From Paludibacter jiangxiensis (GTDB lineage: Bacteria > Bacteroidota > Bacteroidia > Bacteroidales > Paludibacteraceae), in contig CAMBSB010000017.1 of NCBI GenBank assembly GCA_945870155.1, positions 1 through 54,444 on the forward strand: a stretch of DNA of 54,444 nucleotides, read 5' to 3'. This document shows, piece after piece, positions 30,393 through 39,218 of the stretch (positions are counted from its first letter, which is position 1; every line of letters begins with the position of its first letter). The notes below the pieces were generated by a model that did no database searches, had not been told where the DNA came from, and saw nothing but the letters and a program-made list of their open reading frames with translations. The position numbers and the translations under genes are program-made.

Positions 30393-33176
30393 TTATAATA
30401 TTGGGTGAATTATTAGTTTTACCGGCCCAAGCAATCCACTTGGCATAGGTTTCCAATTGCTATAATTGGAACTTTTATAGTTTATATCCACAAAATTTAT
30501 TTCCTTAAAAATACGCCATTCCACTCCTCTGCGGTCTAAATCGGCGATGGCATTGGCTGGAAGATTAGTAATTTCAATCTGCAAGGTATTTTCTCCTTTT
30601 TTCAGATATTTGCTAATATTGCACTCGAACGGAACCGACCAAAGTGTTGCCACGTTTTTACCATTAACAATAATCCGTGCACTTTCACGCACATCGCCCA
30701 AATCGAGAACCCATTGCTCTGAACCAAATTTTTCAACTGTGAAAGTTGTTTTGTAAATTCCTGTTCCTCGATTGATTTTTGCTGCCGGATAGTTTAAATC
30801 TGTCCACGAACCCAACGAATCGAACTGATAAACACCTTCAATTACAGGTTCACTTCGTTCGAAATGTAAGTTCCAATTGGTTTTTAAATCAATAATTTGC
30901 ATTGGGGTTTGTAAGTATTTCCATTCCTGAACATCAACATTCTGTTGTGAATACGTTTTAAGAATAAGCGAAACTCCCGATTTCAATTGCAGATAAACCT
31001 GCGTTTTACCGTTCAGCTCACGTAATTTGGCTTGGCCTATTTCGCCAGTCAAAGGATCGTAAATAATAGCTGATTTTGCAGTAACCGAAAGTGTGATCCA
31101 ACTATCCACATCTTTTTCCTGCAACGAACTTATGAAATAATGAAATCCATCGGCATTGGAACGGCGCAAAGCATGCAATCCAAATTTTGTTTTCATTTCT
31201 TCCGGTTCTTTTCCCACGGCTTGCAACGTTTCTTCGTAGTCTTTTCCGGTAATAATTTGCCCTTTTTTAAATGGTCGAACCGTTGTTTTATCAAAACCGG
31301 ATTTGTTATCCAGTTTTTTCAACAGGGATTTCAACTCGCTTCTCCGGCATTTTAATCGGTCGAATCCGGGAACATCATCGGGGAAATTTTCCATAAAAAC
31401 AACTTTCGCTCCTTGTTCTATCAGTTTTGTGATATGTTTCAAAACTTCCAACGGCATTTTATGCACTGCAGCTAGAATAAGGGTTTCGTAACTAATTCCG
31501 CCTTCGGTAACAATCTTTCCATTTTCGCAAGTGGCGGAGAGAATAAACCGATCGGAAATATAATCGACATCGTAACCACTTTTGTAAATCGACTGCACCA
31601 TGTGGATAAATTTAGGCATACGTTTGTCCATGTTGTGAATGTCGAATTGCAACAATCGTCCCTTTTGTTCGTGCCAACTATCGTAGACCGGCAAATAAAT
31701 AAGAAAATCATTATCCGGTTTGCCCATTTGTAAAAACGACTGACAACGGGTGATGTATGAGAACATCGCTGGTGCATCATTCCAAATAGTATTGTTTGGC
31801 GTCATATTTACCGAGGCGTAAAATTGCCATCCCGGCCAAGCAGCTTCTTTGGGCGAATAAGGCGTTCCATGAAAATAACAATGATTGACACCAGCCGAAA
31901 ACAACAAATCCAAGTCAGGTTTGCATTGCGAAAGCGAGGTGCGGAAATGCTCGGTGAGCCATGTTAATGATTCGGACGATACATAAGGTTTTCCTGAAAT
32001 ATGGGCTGCAGAAGAAGCATATTTTAGCATCGATAACTCCGAATCGTTTTTACGAACCAAAGAGTCGTTGCGCAAACCTTTGATGCCAAAGTCCGACAAG
32101 CCAAATCCTTCGCATTCGGGAACGTCAACGGTAGCGTACAAATCAATTAGGTTTCCGGGTGAACCGTGCGCCTGATTACGGGTTTTACTTCCGTGCGCGT
32201 GTGCCCAGTTTGTCCATTGTTGCGTGAAATTTTCAAGTAGTAATTCCGATAATGTTTCGCGATAATCAGAAATTAAACGCGCCGTTCCTTCAGTTCTTTC
32301 TTTTGCTAAAAATGCGGGCAAATGATTTTCCAGTTTGTATCCTCTGCGCATGTAAAATTGCTCAAAAAAGTCTTCTGTCCAATCTGCACCATACACTTCG
32401 TACGAATCGTTGAAAAAATTATGCGGATACGGCGTTTTGGTTGTTGCAAAAGCTTTTTCGAATCGATCAAAGTAATTTTTCACTGCTTTTTTTGAGCAAT
32501 GATCCATTACGTAACCTTCGCCGCCGGGAGCAGCCCGTTTTACCTTTTGAAAAGTTTTTCCACAAAAAGCAGCAATAATTGTCCAATTGCCTTTCGGAGC
32601 TTTCCAAATCAATTTCCCGTCTGCACCAACTTTTGATGTTAAATCCAAACTTTTGTTATTTGAATTATAAGCCATTACTCTACTGAGTTTAGCTTTTCCC
32701 AACTGATTTTTATCGATGGGAATAATAATAGACGAAAAAACTTCTCCACCTTTCACACTGTATTCGTTGGTCAACAGTTTGGATGCAGCATCTTCAATGC
32801 TAACTTCCGGACCGCCAAACGGCCAGCCTGTTCCATTGTTCATATCGGTTTGCATGCCCAGCCGACTGGTTTCCGCGGTGGTATGTTGCAACATTTCCAT
32901 CCATTTCGGCGAAAGAAACGGAATGTCGTTGGCTTCATTTTTTTGCAAACCATAAATAGACGTAATTTCAACTGCTCCCATTCCGGCACGAGCGTATTCT
33001 TCCAGATTGTAAGTCAGATTGGCTTTATCAACCGCACTTCCCAACCACCACCAGCGCGTTCCCGGGCGCATTTCGTTTGAAATGGTTGGCCAGGAGACTT
33101 GCACCCCTACCCCCTGAAGGGGGAGTAAAGAAGTGCAAAGTATGGAGAATAATACGAATTTTTTCAGTGTTTTCAT
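30393..33176 (-). CDS. GH106-type glycosidase, probable alpha-L-rhamnosidase
   Basis: The protein has 927 residues. The signal peptide region (residues 1-27) contains an unusual LLPLQGVGVQ segment, which is the translation of the dispersed palindromic element. The catalytic part begins with NEMRPGTRWWWLGSAVDKAN and continues through GMGAVEITSIYG, GMQTDMNNGTGWPFGGP, FFNDSYEVYGADWTEDFFEQF and PYVSSESLTWL. This is the usual arrangement of GH106 (Glyco_hydro_106) proteins. The C-terminal 170 or so residues form a beta-sandwich (GIYKTTFTVEKFG, LDLGDVRESARIIVNGK, GLLGPVKLI). There is no lipobox or sorting domain, so it is probably periplasmic. Characterised members release L-rhamnose, but the family is broad. 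Confidence 0.82.
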   Translation of the reverse strand: MKTLKKFVLFSILCTSLLPLQGVGVQVSWPTISNEMRPGTRWWWLGSAVDKANLTYNLEEYARAGMGAVEITSIYGLQKNEANDIPFLSPKWMEMLQHTTAETSRLGMQTDMNNGTGWPFGGPEVSIEDAASKLLTNEYSVKGGEVFSSIIIPIDKNQLGKAKLSRVMAYNSNNKSLDLTSKVGADGKLIWKAPKGNWTIIAAFCGKTFQKVKRAAPGGEGYVMDHCSKKAVKNYFDRFEKAFATTKTPYPHNFFNDSYEVYGADWTEDFFEQFYMRRGYKLENHLPAFLAKERTEGTARLISDYRETLSELLLENFTQQWTNWAHAHGSKTRNQAHGSPGNLIDLYATVDVPECEGFGLSDFGIKGLRNDSLVRKNDSELSMLKYASSAAHISGKPYVSSESLTWLTEHFRTSLSQCKPDLDLLFSAGVNHCYFHGTPYSPKEAAWPGWQFYASVNMTPNNTIWNDAPAMFSYITRCQSFLQMGKPDNDFLIYLPVYDSWHEQKGRLLQFDIHNMDKRMPKFIHMVQSIYKSGYDVDYISDRFILSATCENGKIVTEGGISYETLILAAVHKMPLEVLKHITKLIEQGAKVVFMENFPDDVPGFDRLKCRRSELKSLLKKLDNKSGFDKTTVRPFKKGQIITGKDYEETLQAVGKEPEEMKTKFGLHALRRSNADGFHYFISSLQEKDVDSWITLSVTAKSAIIYDPLTGEIGQAKLRELNGKTQVYLQLKSGVSLILKTYSQQNVDVQEWKYLQTPMQIIDLKTNWNLHFERSEPVIEGVYQFDSLGSWTDLNYPAAKINRGTGIYKTTFTVEKFGSEQWVLDLGDVRESARIIVNGKNVATLWSVPFECNISKYLKKGENTLQIEITNLPANAIADLDRRGVEWRIFKEINFVDINYKSSNYSNWKPMPSGLLGPVKLIIHPIL
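33102..33130. repeat. Dispersed GC-rich palindromic element, copy 6, inside the GH106 signal-peptide region
   Basis: CACCCCTA is followed by the palindrome CCCCCTGAAGGGGG and AGTAAAG. It lies in the coding sequence and translates as LLPLQGVGVQ in the signal peptide, keeping the frame. It is the second coding copy in the window. Confidence 0.8.
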
Positions 33177-34634: not shown

Positions 34635-36056
34635 CTACATTGTTAAGGTATTAAATGATTTTTCGGGCAATTCTACATTCAACATCTTTGCACCTACTTT
34701 TATTTTTAAACTGACTGGATTATTGGAAGTATTTATTGTTACTAACACAATTTTACCGTCAGGCGTTACAAATGATAGAACATCTCCATACCGCCCTTTA
34801 GTCTGGAGTTTCACCGAACCGGGTACAACATAATAACTCAAATGCTTGAAAATGTAAAATTCCGGCGTTTAGGTTACTTTTTTGGTCATTTTATCTATCG
34901 TTACCTGAGCATTTTGCCTCCAACCCCAAGAGCTTTCGCCGGTAGTGTCCAAAATCATGTTCCAATACATGTACGACTTCACGCCTCTATCCACATACAA
35001 TTTTATTTCTTTGAATGTGCTTTCAGCCGATTTCCAATCAAACGATCCATTTCCACAAGGCGTTTCTGTTTGCATCAAATTTTGTTCGGGGTATTTTTTG
35101 GCAACTGCCACCAAAGCATCTTTGCCTTCGTACTGAAATCCAACACCCGAAATATATTTCCGAACATTGGATTGCGAAAGTACAGAATCGAACACTGCTA
35201 CATTGGCATTGTTGATAGTGCTAAACCAAATTTGGGAAGAAATTTTATCTTTCACAAACCGAGGGCCTAAATACATGGATATAAAATCGCGCATGCCACG
35301 AGCTGTCCAACTGCAATTTGGCCATTGGTTATACGTGTAAGGTTCGTTCTGTATATGTACGGAATGTATATTAATCCCTTGTTTGTTGTAGGCCGTTACA
35401 AATCTGGCAAGATAAAGTGCATAAGCCGATAGGTATTCTTTTTTTTGTATAAACTGGTCGCCCGATTTTACTGCTTTCTGCTCAGTTAAGTCATTGAAGG
35501 TATTCGGTTTATTCGCATAATGATTGTTGGTTTTCATCCAAGTTGGCGGACTCCAGGGCGATGCCCATATTTTGAGGTCGGGTCTGTGTTTGATAGCCGC
35601 TTTGATGTACGGAATAAGAATACTTTTATCTCTTTCGATACTAAAGTTTTTCATTTTAAAATCGCCTTCGGTTTCATTCAGCGAATACCATGTAAATGAA
35701 TAGTCGTTCGCCCCGATTGGCATACGGCAAATATTATATTTTAGTCCCTCGTTGGGGTCAAAAAATGCCTGCATCACTTTGTCGCGCTCCTTGAAAGGTA
35801 AAGTTTGCAAAGCCTGCCACCCCAATTCGTTGAAACAACCGCCCCAGCCTTCCATTGTTTGTTGTTTCTGGTCTGTTAGCACTTCAATATCAACTTCGTC
35901 TGTTTCTTTAAAGTCGGTAAGTTTTATTGATTCATTTTTCACCCACCTATTTTGATCCGTACTGCTCACCCAGTCAGCTTTTTGGGAAAATGCATTTATT
36001 ACAGCGCAGAAAATAAGTGCTAATTCTATGACTACTTTTTTGTTTTGCATTATCAA
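34635..36056 (-). pseudogene. GH30 glycosidase gene interrupted by one in-frame stop codon
   Basis: One frame of 474 codons runs from ATG 36056 (or 36050) to the stop at 34635, broken only by TAA at 34869-34871 (codon 396). Upstream are a signal peptide, GWGGCFNELGW (about 70-80), NICRMPIGANDYSFTWYS, WASPWSPPTWMKTNNHY, HIQNEPYTYNQ (Glu238 acid/base) and MQTETPCGNGS (Glu331 nucleophile). The barrel is thus complete. After the TAA the same frame continues with PEFYIFKHLSYYVVPGSVKL and the GH30 beta-sandwich strand set (GKIVLVTINTSNNPVSLKI). In intact relatives a Tyr is usual near this position (VTYNPEFY), so TAT/TAC to TAA is the likely change. The catalytic domain resembles beta-1,6-glucanase-type GH30. 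It may be a recent pseudogene, a read-through gene or a sequencing error. Confidence 0.85.
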
Positions 36057-36091: not shown

Positions 36092-36655
36092 TCACTTAGA
36101 AGTCATTTTGCCCCTTAGTTTATGTTCCTTTTCGGCATTCCAATACGCACAATCGAGTTCTATAAATACGGAAGAATACGGAATGGTCGATTCGGTTTTC
36201 AGCACCAAAACTTCGAATAAGCTGGAGGCCGAATCCAGTTTTGCAAACACATCGTTGTGAAGAAGCGTATTCTGTTGGTAGTTTTTGAGCGAAACAGCTA
36301 TAGATTTTTTCAGGTTATCGACTCCGGGCGATAAATCTTCGGTTATTTGTGCAAATTCCAAATCGGTAAATACAATTGGTTTAACGTGGGTCGAAGTTGA
36401 AATACTGCCCATAACGTACCGCAACACTTCGGGTAATTGCTCACCAGTATTGATTATAGTCATGCCTTGAGCACTTTGTAACGGAAATGCTTTGTCCACT
36501 ACCAGCACCCAATTGCGATGCCCCAACAAGGGCAATTTTTGCTGAAATTCATCTTGCCAGCTGACTGGTTTTGTAGCATTAAACTGGCAACTCGTAAGTA
36601 AAATAGTAACTGCAAAAAGTGTGAAAAACCTGAACTTAATTTGTTTAGCCTGCAT
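36092..36655 (-). CDS. RbsD/FucU-like mutarotase-type lipoprotein
   Basis: The protein has 187 residues with a lipoprotein signal ending LLTSC (Cys23). No acidic residues follow the Cys, suggesting the periplasmic side. The mature part resembles the RbsD/FucU sugar pyranase/mutarotase fold: LLGHRNWVLVVDKAFPLQ (45-61) corresponds to the GHGN..I.ADAGFP start with its catalytic His (here His46), and VLKTESTIPYSSVFIEL (151-167) corresponds to the TGE.TPYANIIL end with its conserved Tyr (here Tyr160). Typical RbsD/FucU proteins are cytosolic and about 130-150 residues. A lipid anchor is unusual. It sits 1 base after the GH116 stop and 35 bases before the GH30 frame. Interconversion of sugar anomers released by these enzymes is an inference. 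Confidence 0.65.
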   Translation of the reverse strand: MQAKQIKFRFFTLFAVTILLTSCQFNATKPVSWQDEFQQKLPLLGHRNWVLVVDKAFPLQSAQGMTIINTGEQLPEVLRYVMGSISTSTHVKPIVFTDLEFAQITEDLSPGVDNLKKSIAVSLKNYQQNTLLHNDVFAKLDSASSLFEVLVLKTESTIPYSSVFIELDCAYWNAEKEHKLRGKMTSK

Positions 36656-36656
36656 A

Positions 36657-39218
36657 TTATATTTTTAATTGAATGGTTTTTTGTTCACCTTCGTTAATAT
36701 TGAGTTTTACTTTGGTTGGTTTTGGGTTGCCTTTCAGCGAAAACTGTTTTAGTATAAGGTTTTCTTTCAGCACTTTAATAGTTGCTTGATGGTTGGCAAC
36801 TTTGCATGTTCCATACGCATAACCATTACTCCAAAAATAGGTTCCGGGCTGCGAAGTGATGGTCATAGACTGCTCCACACCCGAATAGCTAAATTCGCTC
36901 AACGCAATGAGCGTTGCCCAACTTGCCATCGAACGAGCGTAGTGATGACCACATTCGGGTTCGCTAAATGGGTTGCGTTTGGCACCATTGTGGCGGTCGC
37001 GTATAGCTTGAATTACTTTCAGCGCATCTTCTTTTTCACCCTCGTAAATCATTTCTACAGCGGCCGCATATTCAAAACCGGTCATTACTTCGGCAAAATA
37101 AGGAAATGGCACTTCCAAACGCCCTTTTGGCCACGAAGCCATCAATAATCCCGCTTCATTGCCCATGGTGTACGAACGCATATTGTTGAAATGTGCCGAA
37201 AAATCGGGCATAAAATTATTCGTCATCACGCTTTTCGAAGCTGTTTGAATGTTGGTTTTATCGGCTAAATAACCCAAACCGCACACATGAGCCATGTATT
37301 GCCCCACCAACTGATCCACCAAACACCCGCTGCCTAATTGGAACGCAGGAACATTTGTTGCCGGATTTGACATGTCCAAAAACTCGAATGTTTTTGGGCT
37401 GGTAATTTTATGTTCGTAATACGAACCATTGAACAAATTGGCATCCATCCATTTCGAACCTTTGCTGAATAAATCAGCACATTTTCGGGCAAATTCCTTA
37501 TCCTTCATGGCAAGAGCCATTTTTTCGGCTGACTTCAAAGCGCCCAGATACCAGAATCCCATTTGCGGATTGGGTCCAAAATAATTCACATCCATGGTGT
37601 TGTGCTGACTGCCTTCCATCACGCCGTCCTGATTACCATCCCAGCCTTTTTCGGTCCAGGCAAAAGCCAATACTTTTTTTACCTGACTGTAATTATTTTT
37701 CAAAAATTGAGCGTCGCCGGATAATTGCCAGTCGCGGTAGAATTTCATAATGCAGCCCATTTGTCCATCAGCAGCCGATGCCGAATTTTTATTGGCAATG
37801 GAAAGTGGCAAGTCGGCTCTGAAATTCATTAATCCGTTTTCTTTGGTAGCGTAATTAAATTCCACATCGCGCATGGTTCGGGCTAAATCGCCAAACAAAA
37901 AAGGCGTTGCCGCTTCGTAATTCCACACGTGTGTGCAACTTCCCTTGCACGAACCCATTTTGTCCATCACGCCTTCCCAACCCATTAAATGGCCACTTGG
38001 CAAGCGGAAAACAGTTTGCGAACGCAGTACAGCCAAGTTAAACAAGGCTGCTTCTTTTACCACATTCGGGTACGAAGATGCAGCAATGGCATTCACAAAA
38101 TCGAGCGTTTGCGATTCCAATTGAGTCAATTTTGGCAGCACTTTTTCGGCCACATCCCAAGCGTTGCTAAATTGCTGACTGTAATAATTTCCAACAAAAT
38201 TGGTGTCAGTCCAATTATACCTGTTAGGGAAATTCCAGCTAATAAAAAACGAAAAAGTAGCCTTCGAACCTGCTGCAATCGTCTTTTTTACCGACAACGA
38301 CGCCATCGGGTCATCTTCGTTTTGTGCGAATTTTTCTGTGAGTTCGCCATCAGCTGAAAAATCATCCCAAAAACTCAACAAGGCATTACTCCAATTGTCT
38401 TTTTTGGAAGCAGTTCGGTAAGTTACTCCGGCATTTTCCTGAGTTGTTAAAGCCATTGTTCCGTAGGCAGCACTCGTAGAATCCACTCCTTTCGAATCAA
38501 AATAAATACCTCTGAAATTTTCCGAAACCCGATAGGCATTTCTATTCTTTTTAGCTCCAACGGGAATCACATCGCCTTTCCAGTCGGAAGTATTTTGCTG
38601 TCCGTTTTTACCAATAAAATTCCGAATAGAGCCACAAACAGCCACATCGATAGCTTTGTTGGAAGTGTTCGAAATTTCGTAAGTTAGTATGGCAATGGGC
38701 AATCCGCTATTGTCGGCATCGGTGGGAATAAGCGGATTAAAACCTTTGATTTTCACTTTCACAGGTAGGGATTTATCTTCCAAATTTACTTGTCCAAAAG
38801 GATAAGCCCCATCGAAACTTGCTGACTCAAACCGCGGCAGCCCATGATGATCCACCGGACGTCCTTCGTAATGTAAATACTCATCGTCGTAAAGTTTTCC
38901 CATCAACGCCTTTGTTTGGGTTTTGCCATCCTGCTGTTTTACATAAATCGCAAAAAACGGTGCATTATTGCCCGTTGTTACGGAGCTAAAACCTTTGGCG
39001 GGCACATTCATCAGTTCCCAATCGCGCAATTCACCCCGACCACCAAGCGATACCGTTCCGGTACCAATTCCACCCAATGGCAATGCAATTTGTTTTAATG
39101 ATGTAGCATCATAATGCTTAATAATTGGCCAATCTTTGGGTGACCATTGTGCGAAAGTAGATGTATAATTTAGACTTACAACAAATAGAATTGAAAGATA
39201 AAAGATGATTTTTTTCAT
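36657..39218 (-). CDS. Secreted GH116 beta-glucosidase-like enzyme
   Basis: The protein has 853 residues and a signal peptide ending TSTFAQ (about residue 23). The N-terminal beta-sandwich begins with QIALPLGGIGTGTVSLGGRGELRDWEL, the standard start of the GH116 N-terminal domain. The (alpha/alpha)6 catalytic domain (about 390-770) contains GSCTHVWNYEAATPFLF and GSQHNTMDVNYFGPNPQMGFWYLGAL, which should hold the family's nucleophile Glu and acid/base Asp. The C-terminal 75 or so residues form a small sandwich. Family members remove beta-linked glucose (also xylose or N-acetylglucosamine) from aryl, lipid or oligosaccharide substrates. It has no sorting domain and is probably periplasmic. It is 25 bases after the GH2 gene at 39244. 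Confidence 0.9.
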   Translation of the reverse strand: MKKIIFYLSILFVVSLNYTSTFAQWSPKDWPIIKHYDATSLKQIALPLGGIGTGTVSLGGRGELRDWELMNVPAKGFSSVTTGNNAPFFAIYVKQQDGKTQTKALMGKLYDDEYLHYEGRPVDHHGLPRFESASFDGAYPFGQVNLEDKSLPVKVKIKGFNPLIPTDADNSGLPIAILTYEISNTSNKAIDVAVCGSIRNFIGKNGQQNTSDWKGDVIPVGAKKNRNAYRVSENFRGIYFDSKGVDSTSAAYGTMALTTQENAGVTYRTASKKDNWSNALLSFWDDFSADGELTEKFAQNEDDPMASLSVKKTIAAGSKATFSFFISWNFPNRYNWTDTNFVGNYYSQQFSNAWDVAEKVLPKLTQLESQTLDFVNAIAASSYPNVVKEAALFNLAVLRSQTVFRLPSGHLMGWEGVMDKMGSCKGSCTHVWNYEAATPFLFGDLARTMRDVEFNYATKENGLMNFRADLPLSIANKNSASAADGQMGCIMKFYRDWQLSGDAQFLKNNYSQVKKVLAFAWTEKGWDGNQDGVMEGSQHNTMDVNYFGPNPQMGFWYLGALKSAEKMALAMKDKEFARKCADLFSKGSKWMDANLFNGSYYEHKITSPKTFEFLDMSNPATNVPAFQLGSGCLVDQLVGQYMAHVCGLGYLADKTNIQTASKSVMTNNFMPDFSAHFNNMRSYTMGNEAGLLMASWPKGRLEVPFPYFAEVMTGFEYAAAVEMIYEGEKEDALKVIQAIRDRHNGAKRNPFSEPECGHHYARSMASWATLIALSEFSYSGVEQSMTITSQPGTYFWSNGYAYGTCKVANHQATIKVLKENLILKQFSLKGNPKPTKVKLNINEGEQKTIQLKI

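Follow-up and report, generated by a model that had tools for sequence, protein, structure and literature searches.

A lipid-anchored RbsD/FucU-fold protein encoded next to a GH116 enzyme in Paludibacter jiangxiensis: a candidate periplasmic sugar pyranase

Gene organisation at the locus

We analysed a 54,444-nucleotide stretch of DNA from Paludibacter jiangxiensis (contig CAMBSB010000017.1 of assembly GCA_945870155.1), referred to here as the window, and within it a gene for a 187-residue lipoprotein that resembles the sugar pyranases and mutarotases RbsD and FucU. The open reading frame (ORF) of this RbsD-like gene lies on the reverse strand and starts 1 bp past the stop codon of a gene for a glycoside hydrolase of family 116 (GH116; 36657-39218, -). 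The original prediction had described a unit running from a GH30 gene to the GH116 gene at 36092-39218; that span covers the RbsD-like gene and the GH116 gene alone, and the GH30 gene lies at 34869-36056. The features of the RbsD-like gene are as follows.

36092..36655, reverse strand: RbsD/FucU-fold lipoprotein gene, 187 aa (ORF, Pfam, AlphaFold2 (AF2) model and PDB structure matches)
36587..36655, reverse strand: lipoprotein signal peptide and lipobox Cys23 (sequence and family tally); the following residues are QFNAT, without an acidic cluster and so with nothing that points to surface export
36518..36520, reverse strand: His46, aligned to His20 of the GH motif of E. coli RbsD (family and profile alignments)
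36494..36496, reverse strand: Asp54, aligned to Asp28 of E. coli RbsD (family and profile alignments)
36257..36259, reverse strand: His133, in 81/81 family rows; when the profiles are aligned it falls not quite opposite His106 of RbsD
36170..36178, reverse strand: Tyr160-Ser161-Ser162 (family and profile alignments)

Structural similarity to RbsD and FucU

The Pfam family PF05025 (RbsD_FucU) matched the window protein weakly, at 16.5 bits and E 0.011, which is below the gathering cut-off of 25, and was matched at E<=0.1 by all 45 members that were scanned (the window protein and those from 44 of the 80 loci described below; best 7.6e-9). At the same threshold the NCBIfam model for D-ribose pyranase was matched by 24 of these 45 (best 8.3e-6). 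The window protein itself had no match in NCBIfam or PHROGs, and a PDB sequence search, run with the single sequence and with a profile, returned no related entry. The structure predicted by AF2 from 45 family sequences had a predicted local distance difference test score (pLDDT) of 92.6. It gave 21 matches to PDB structures at E<=0.001, all of the RbsD/FucU type, with target-normalised template modelling (TM) scores of up to 0.74 and B. subtilis RbsD as the top match. Seventeen of these chains have titles naming RbsD, FucU, ribose pyranase or fucose mutarotase; three more come from the Salmonella ribose transport system entry 3e7n and one is 2ob5, 'Atu2016, putative sugar binding protein', both of which we take to be RbsD/FucU proteins. 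A profile-profile comparison of the family with 15 canonical RbsD/FucU rows gave a local E of 2.6e-6 (probability 88.6) and a global E of 9.7e-6 (62.7).

The Pfam and structure matches argue that the likeness to RbsD/FucU is no chance motif, and the RbsD/FucU fold is a solid prediction for the window protein, as first proposed from the sequence. The model is of a single chain; RbsD/FucU proteins assemble into decameric rings, and the window protein may do so too.

Conserved residues and phylogeny

The seed alignment held three rows, namely the window protein and two relatives that share 66% and 49% of its residues. One scan of species genomes with this alignment and the patterns PLLGHRNW and [IV]LVVDKAF matched 343 stretches, 262 of them encoding relatives, and the best 80 of the 262 were kept as loci. 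With the window protein these make 81 family rows, and residue counts below are taken over the rows with letters at the position concerned. Invariant among them are Gly45-His46-Arg47-Asn48-Trp49, Asp54, His90, Asp98, Glu100, His133, Lys153, Tyr160, Ser162, Tyr171, Trp172, Glu177 and Arg181. His46 and Asp54 are found in 80/80 rows, and His133 and Tyr160 in 81/81. The invariance of the GHRNW block and of Asp54 is partly built in, because both fall within the scan patterns, whereas the later residues lie outside them. A Phocaeicola relative found by tblastn without any pattern (37% identical) has GHRNW, the Asp, the second His and PYTS, and so all four key residues.

The His and Tyr that had been picked out in the window protein are thus both present and retained among its homologues; the TPY-type motif ascribed to the Tyr proved to read IPYSS. 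Tyr160 aligns with the C-terminal Tyr of E. coli RbsD, a position held by Tyr in 13 and Phe in two of the 15 canonical rows. We take His20, Asp28 and this Tyr to be active-site residues of RbsD. Two residues past the Tyr, all 15 canonical rows have Asn, and all 81 family rows have Ser (Ser162).

A tree was built from 80 family rows (the window and 79 loci, leaving out the fragment L081) and the 15 canonical rows, one of which (L107) was trimmed to its RbsD/FucU part for this purpose and left untrimmed in the profile comparison. The family falls on one side of a branch with a Shimodaira-Hasegawa-like approximate likelihood-ratio test (SH-aLRT) support of 99, at a place where, as the program warns, long branches meet. 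We file the family as a separate branch of the RbsD/FucU superfamily and not as RbsD or FucU, because it departs from both in the Asn, the Pfam score and the cytosolic location.

Cellular location

The N-terminus of the window protein, MQAKQIKFRFFTLFAVTILLTSC, closes with the lipobox-like motif LTSC, ending in Cys23. In the 81 rows the lipobox column holds Cys in 66, Ser in one and a gap in 14, one of the Cys rows (L056) looking like an accident of alignment. The surface-export signal of Bacteroidetes lipoproteins is given as K-(D/E)2 or Q-A-(D/E)2 in the abstract of PMC5080379. At least two acidic residues within five positions after the Cys occur in only one of the 66 Cys rows, and this scarcity, at odds with such an export signal, makes it probable that the protein faces the periplasm. 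The location outside the cytoplasm that had been proposed for the window protein probably extends to most of the family. By eye, eight relatives have no signal (L009, L020, L022, L056, L066, L068, L082, L084), five have a Sec-like signal without a lipobox (L061, L076, L078, L080, L083), and in three the start is unreadable (L038, L077, L081). A Glyoxalase_4 gene lies near five of the signal-less relatives, from gut and rumen Bacteroidales (L020, L056, L068, L082, L084; Pfam check on L020, L056 and L084); its product would be a methylmalonyl-CoA epimerase.

The GH116 proteins also appear to be exported. Of the 35 linked GH116 ORFs longer than 700 aa, 30 carry a twin-Arg motif within their first 70 residues, and the window GH116 and others of its type have, by eye, the look of Sec-exported proteins. 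Their signals lead us to expect both the RbsD-like protein and GH116 outside the cytoplasm.

The GH116 partner enzyme

Searched against the PDB, the window GH116 matched the exo-beta-D-arabinofuranosidase entries 8ic6/8ic7 first, at E 1.9e-128 and 432.9 bits, compared with E 4.5e-17 and 64.5 bits for the top glucosylceramidase or beta-glucosidase entry. The same entries were the top PDB match for the GH116 of three further loci (L016, L039, L115). According to the part of PMC10509167 available, this enzyme, ExoMA2, has Glu431 and Asp557 as its catalytic residues, differs from beta-glucosidase in the recognition residues His446 and Arg483, and belongs to a GH116 subfamily 4 defined there. Corresponding residues were read off the alignment of the window GH116 with 8ic6/8ic7, in which the chain numbering runs 4 ahead.

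36657..39218, reverse strand: GH116 (subfamily-4-like), 853 aa, with a Sec-type signal by eye; closest solved relative ExoMA2, 8ic6/8ic7
37974..37976, reverse strand: Glu415, equivalent to the ExoMA2 nucleophile Glu431 (alignment)
37590..37592, reverse strand: Asp543, equivalent to the ExoMA2 acid/base Asp557 (alignment)
37929..37931, reverse strand: His430, equivalent to ExoMA2 His446, a recognition residue that differs in beta-glucosidase (alignment)
37818..37820, reverse strand: Arg467, equivalent to ExoMA2 Arg483, a recognition residue that differs in beta-glucosidase (alignment)

These four residues are kept in all 37 GH116 rows with letters at the positions (43 rows, six of them gapped fragments). 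The window GH116 would most likely release a beta-linked furanose such as D-arabinofuranose. Matches to GH183 were found in 10 and to GH172 in 18 of 38 genomes (the own genome and 37 that carry linked loci, all 39 of these except L061 and L081), and the own genome has no match to either. The words GH116, RbsD, mutarotase and pyranase do not occur in the available portion of PMC10115798.

Pairing with GH116 across genomes

GH116 is present in 39 of the 80 loci. In 35 it lies directly upstream on the same strand (median gap 4 bp, range -77 to 149), in two directly downstream (L061, L076) and in two it is non-adjacent (L005, L081), making it a direct neighbour in 37/80. We consider chance adjacency of the two genes negligible, because just 14 GH116 matches occur in 296 genomes of the phylum; one inherited cassette accounts for many of the loci, so the 37 adjacencies are not independent events. 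We infer that the GH116 and RbsD-like genes are co-transcribed. At one locus (L054, 7132-9944) the GH116 adjoining the RbsD-like gene is broken up, with separate ORFs of 684 and 248 aa.

SusC and SusD are both encoded in 21 of the 39 GH116-linked loci (Pfam check on L039), with the SusD gene immediately before GH116 in 13. In Phocaeicola massiliensis (OY726067.1) the consecutive genes encode FecR, SusC, SusD, GH116 and the RbsD-like lipoprotein, the GH116 being 69% identical to that of the window. This locus (L115, 64352-82915) lies in a 140-kb record labelled as a plasmid, where the cassette adjoins electron transfer flavoprotein (ETF) and acyl-CoA dehydrogenase genes; the record may be a chromosomal piece rather than a plasmid.

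Neighbours in some of the loci without GH116 include GH106, GH127, GH78, GH88-like and GH29 enzymes, gluconolactonase and Gfo/Idh/MocA proteins. In two of these (L015 and L017) the gene directly upstream is GH127, which bears the name beta-L-arabinofuranosidase and speaks for the furanose reading. Three Flavobacterium clusters (L016, L038, L045) combine GH2, an MR_MLE dehydratase, GH116, the RbsD-like protein, gluconolactonase, a PfkB kinase, a 2-keto-3-deoxy-6-phosphogluconate (KDPG)-type aldolase and an SSF symporter; Pfam was run on L016 and on one L038 gene. At L016 the dehydratase gene precedes the pair, which is followed by the lactonase, kinase, aldolase and sodium symporter genes. Such a gene set looks like an oxidative route, and the ring form of the sugar could matter to its first enzyme.

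Searched for among 100 genomes of relatives, the own genome included, the RbsD-like protein had a match in three, one of which is an ordinary FucU-like gene. In the phylum sample the RbsD-like gene was found in 2 of 395 genomes by the single protein and likewise in 2 of 395 by a profile search that scored the best eight candidates at most per genome, these being the own genome and one other (G113). Canonical RbsD/FucU occurs in 10 of 247 phylum genomes, and in the own genome PF05025 has a single match at E<=0.001, an ordinary FucU-like gene elsewhere. We found no report of a lipoprotein RbsD/FucU in the literature, judged mostly from titles and the openings of abstracts.

Other genes of the window

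34869..36056, reverse strand: GH30 catalytic part, 395 aa; closes at an in-frame TAA (34869-34871); loosely linked neighbour

Beyond the TAA the GH30 frame seems open by eye. At 395 aa the window GH30 is shorter than its counterpart of 485 aa in the nearest relative (L005); the early stop may be a nonsense change or an assembly error. GH30 was found at 2 of the 80 loci (L005, L075) and probably lies outside the conserved unit. A conserved unit including GH30 was rejected on this count, and with it the three-gene unit of the original prediction, against which the in-frame stop of the window copy also speaks; its expectation of co-occurrence in other genomes held for GH116 and weakly for GH30. 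A GH16 gene is also nearby. The GH106 alpha-L-rhamnosidase at 30393-33176 (-) scores above the NCBIfam BT4145 equivalog cut-off (1516.9 vs 1300).

Proposed function and alternatives

The reading we favour, by a little more than an even judgement, is that the window encodes a periplasm-facing, lipid-anchored pyranase or mutarotase of the RbsD/FucU fold acting on the monosaccharide released by GH116; the conversion of anomers or ring forms first suggested for this protein is thereby retained as the best guess. An oligosaccharide or glycoside would probably enter the periplasm through the SusC/SusD pair. The GH116, exported by a Sec or Tat signal, would then remove a terminal sugar with retention, freeing a beta-furanose, most likely one such as D-arabinofuranose. 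The RbsD-like protein would quickly turn the fresh beta-furanose into the pyranose or anomer taken by an inner-membrane transporter or the next enzyme. The fold, the lipobox, the gene pairing and the affinity of the GH116 are computed results, on which the proposed activity, sugar and order of steps build. More tentatively, and with rather less than even confidence, we suggest that a distinct branch of the superfamily was relocated to the periplasm, chiefly in Bacteroidota, and there became a lipid-anchored pyranase specialised in turning the furanoses that exported GH116 furanosidases release into importable pyranoses, within a compact SusC-SusD-GH116-pyranase cassette found also in a Phocaeicola.

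Several observations weigh against this proposal. GH116 is missing from the loci of 41 of the 80 relatives (three of them without any upstream gene, others on short contigs), some of which stand beside the pyranosidase families GH106, GH78 and GH29. Conversely, GH116 also occurs without the RbsD-like gene: it is present in 13 of 296 phylum genomes (the 14 matches given above), while the phylum searches described above found the RbsD-like gene in the own genome and G113. Of 12 such proteins from phylum genomes other than the own and G113, eight keep the four ExoMA2 residues, three differ and one is unreadable; the residues therefore characterise the subfamily rather than the pair and are no proof of the sugar. 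The eight signal-less relatives are seemingly cytosolic. Six signal-less gut and rumen rows cluster in the tree, and five of them have as neighbours no sugar genes but the Glyoxalase_4 gene together with genes of carboxyltransferase/decarboxylase type. The replacement of the canonical Asn by Ser is a further point, as is the lack of GH172 and GH183 matches in the own genome, on account of which a D-arabinan pathway of the known type was not adopted for this organism.

The strongest alternative, which we nevertheless regard as fairly unlikely, is a general periplasmic mutarotase for any locally released monosaccharide, without furanose preference, for which GH116 is merely the commonest partner. 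It would accommodate the direct or near neighbours GH106 (L011, L021), GH78 (L071), a GH88-like enzyme (L036), GH29 (L058), gluconolactonase (L074) and Gfo/Idh/MocA proteins (L010, L070, L023), as well as the Flavobacterium locus L016, where GH2, MR_MLE dehydratase, gluconolactonase, PfkB kinase and KDPG-type aldolase genes surround the pair as in an oxidative hexose route. However, direct adjacency to GH116 at nearly half of the loci exceeds what a general mutarotase would need, though much of it may reflect the one inherited cassette.

Less probable still is a lipoprotein without catalytic function, whose RbsD/FucU fold would serve to bind a sugar or pass it to a transporter. The Ser found throughout in place of Asn is consistent with such a role and the lipid anchor suits binding, whereas the invariance of His46, Asp54, His133, Lys153 and Tyr160 among rows 41-63% identical to the window protein would be more expected of catalysis. 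Finally, the adjoining GH30 catalytic domain, GH30 at two other loci and the nearby GH16 gene would fit conversion of glucose anomers freed from beta-glucosides, glucosyl-lipids or beta-1,6-glucan by GH30 and GH116, but the far higher score of GH116 to exo-beta-D-arabinofuranosidase, the rarity of GH30 and its in-frame stop make this highly improbable, and the glucosylceramide, beta-glucoside or beta-1,6-glucan substrates first considered were set aside.

Comparison with known systems

The conversion of sugar ring forms is usually regarded as spontaneous or cytosolic. If the GH116-linked pyranase proposed here is correct, furanoside uptake in Bacteroidota would include a change of ring form, made by an enzyme of its own outside the cytoplasm, which the compact four-gene cassette makes directly testable. 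It would also hint at what a subgroup of GH116 does that could otherwise be annotated as beta-glucosidase or glucosylceramidase.

The family shares with RbsD (D-ribose pyranase) and FucU (L-fucose mutarotase), the members of PF05025, the fold, the His of the GH motif, the Asp and the C-terminal Tyr. Unlike them it has longer termini, Ser for Asn, in most members a lipid anchor and in many a GH116 neighbour, and the window protein falls under the Pfam cut-off. A periplasmic exception to spontaneous or cytosolic conversion is E. coli NanM, which, as the accessible part of PMC10017367 describes, converts the sialic acid anomer freed by a retaining sialidase and may aid its uptake. On that description NanM resembles our proposal, in which the sugar form released by a retaining exo-glycosidase would be converted in the periplasm before the transporter. 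In contrast to the lipid-anchored RbsD-like protein, NanM is a soluble beta-propeller of unrelated fold and acts on a different sugar. The closest solved relative of the window GH116 is ExoMA2, with which it shares the nucleophile, the acid/base and the two recognition residues. ExoMA2, in the portion of PMC10509167 available, is an intracellular enzyme without a signal, encoded in a GH183/GH172 cluster, whereas the window GH116 carries a signal and its genome has no GH183 or GH172 match.

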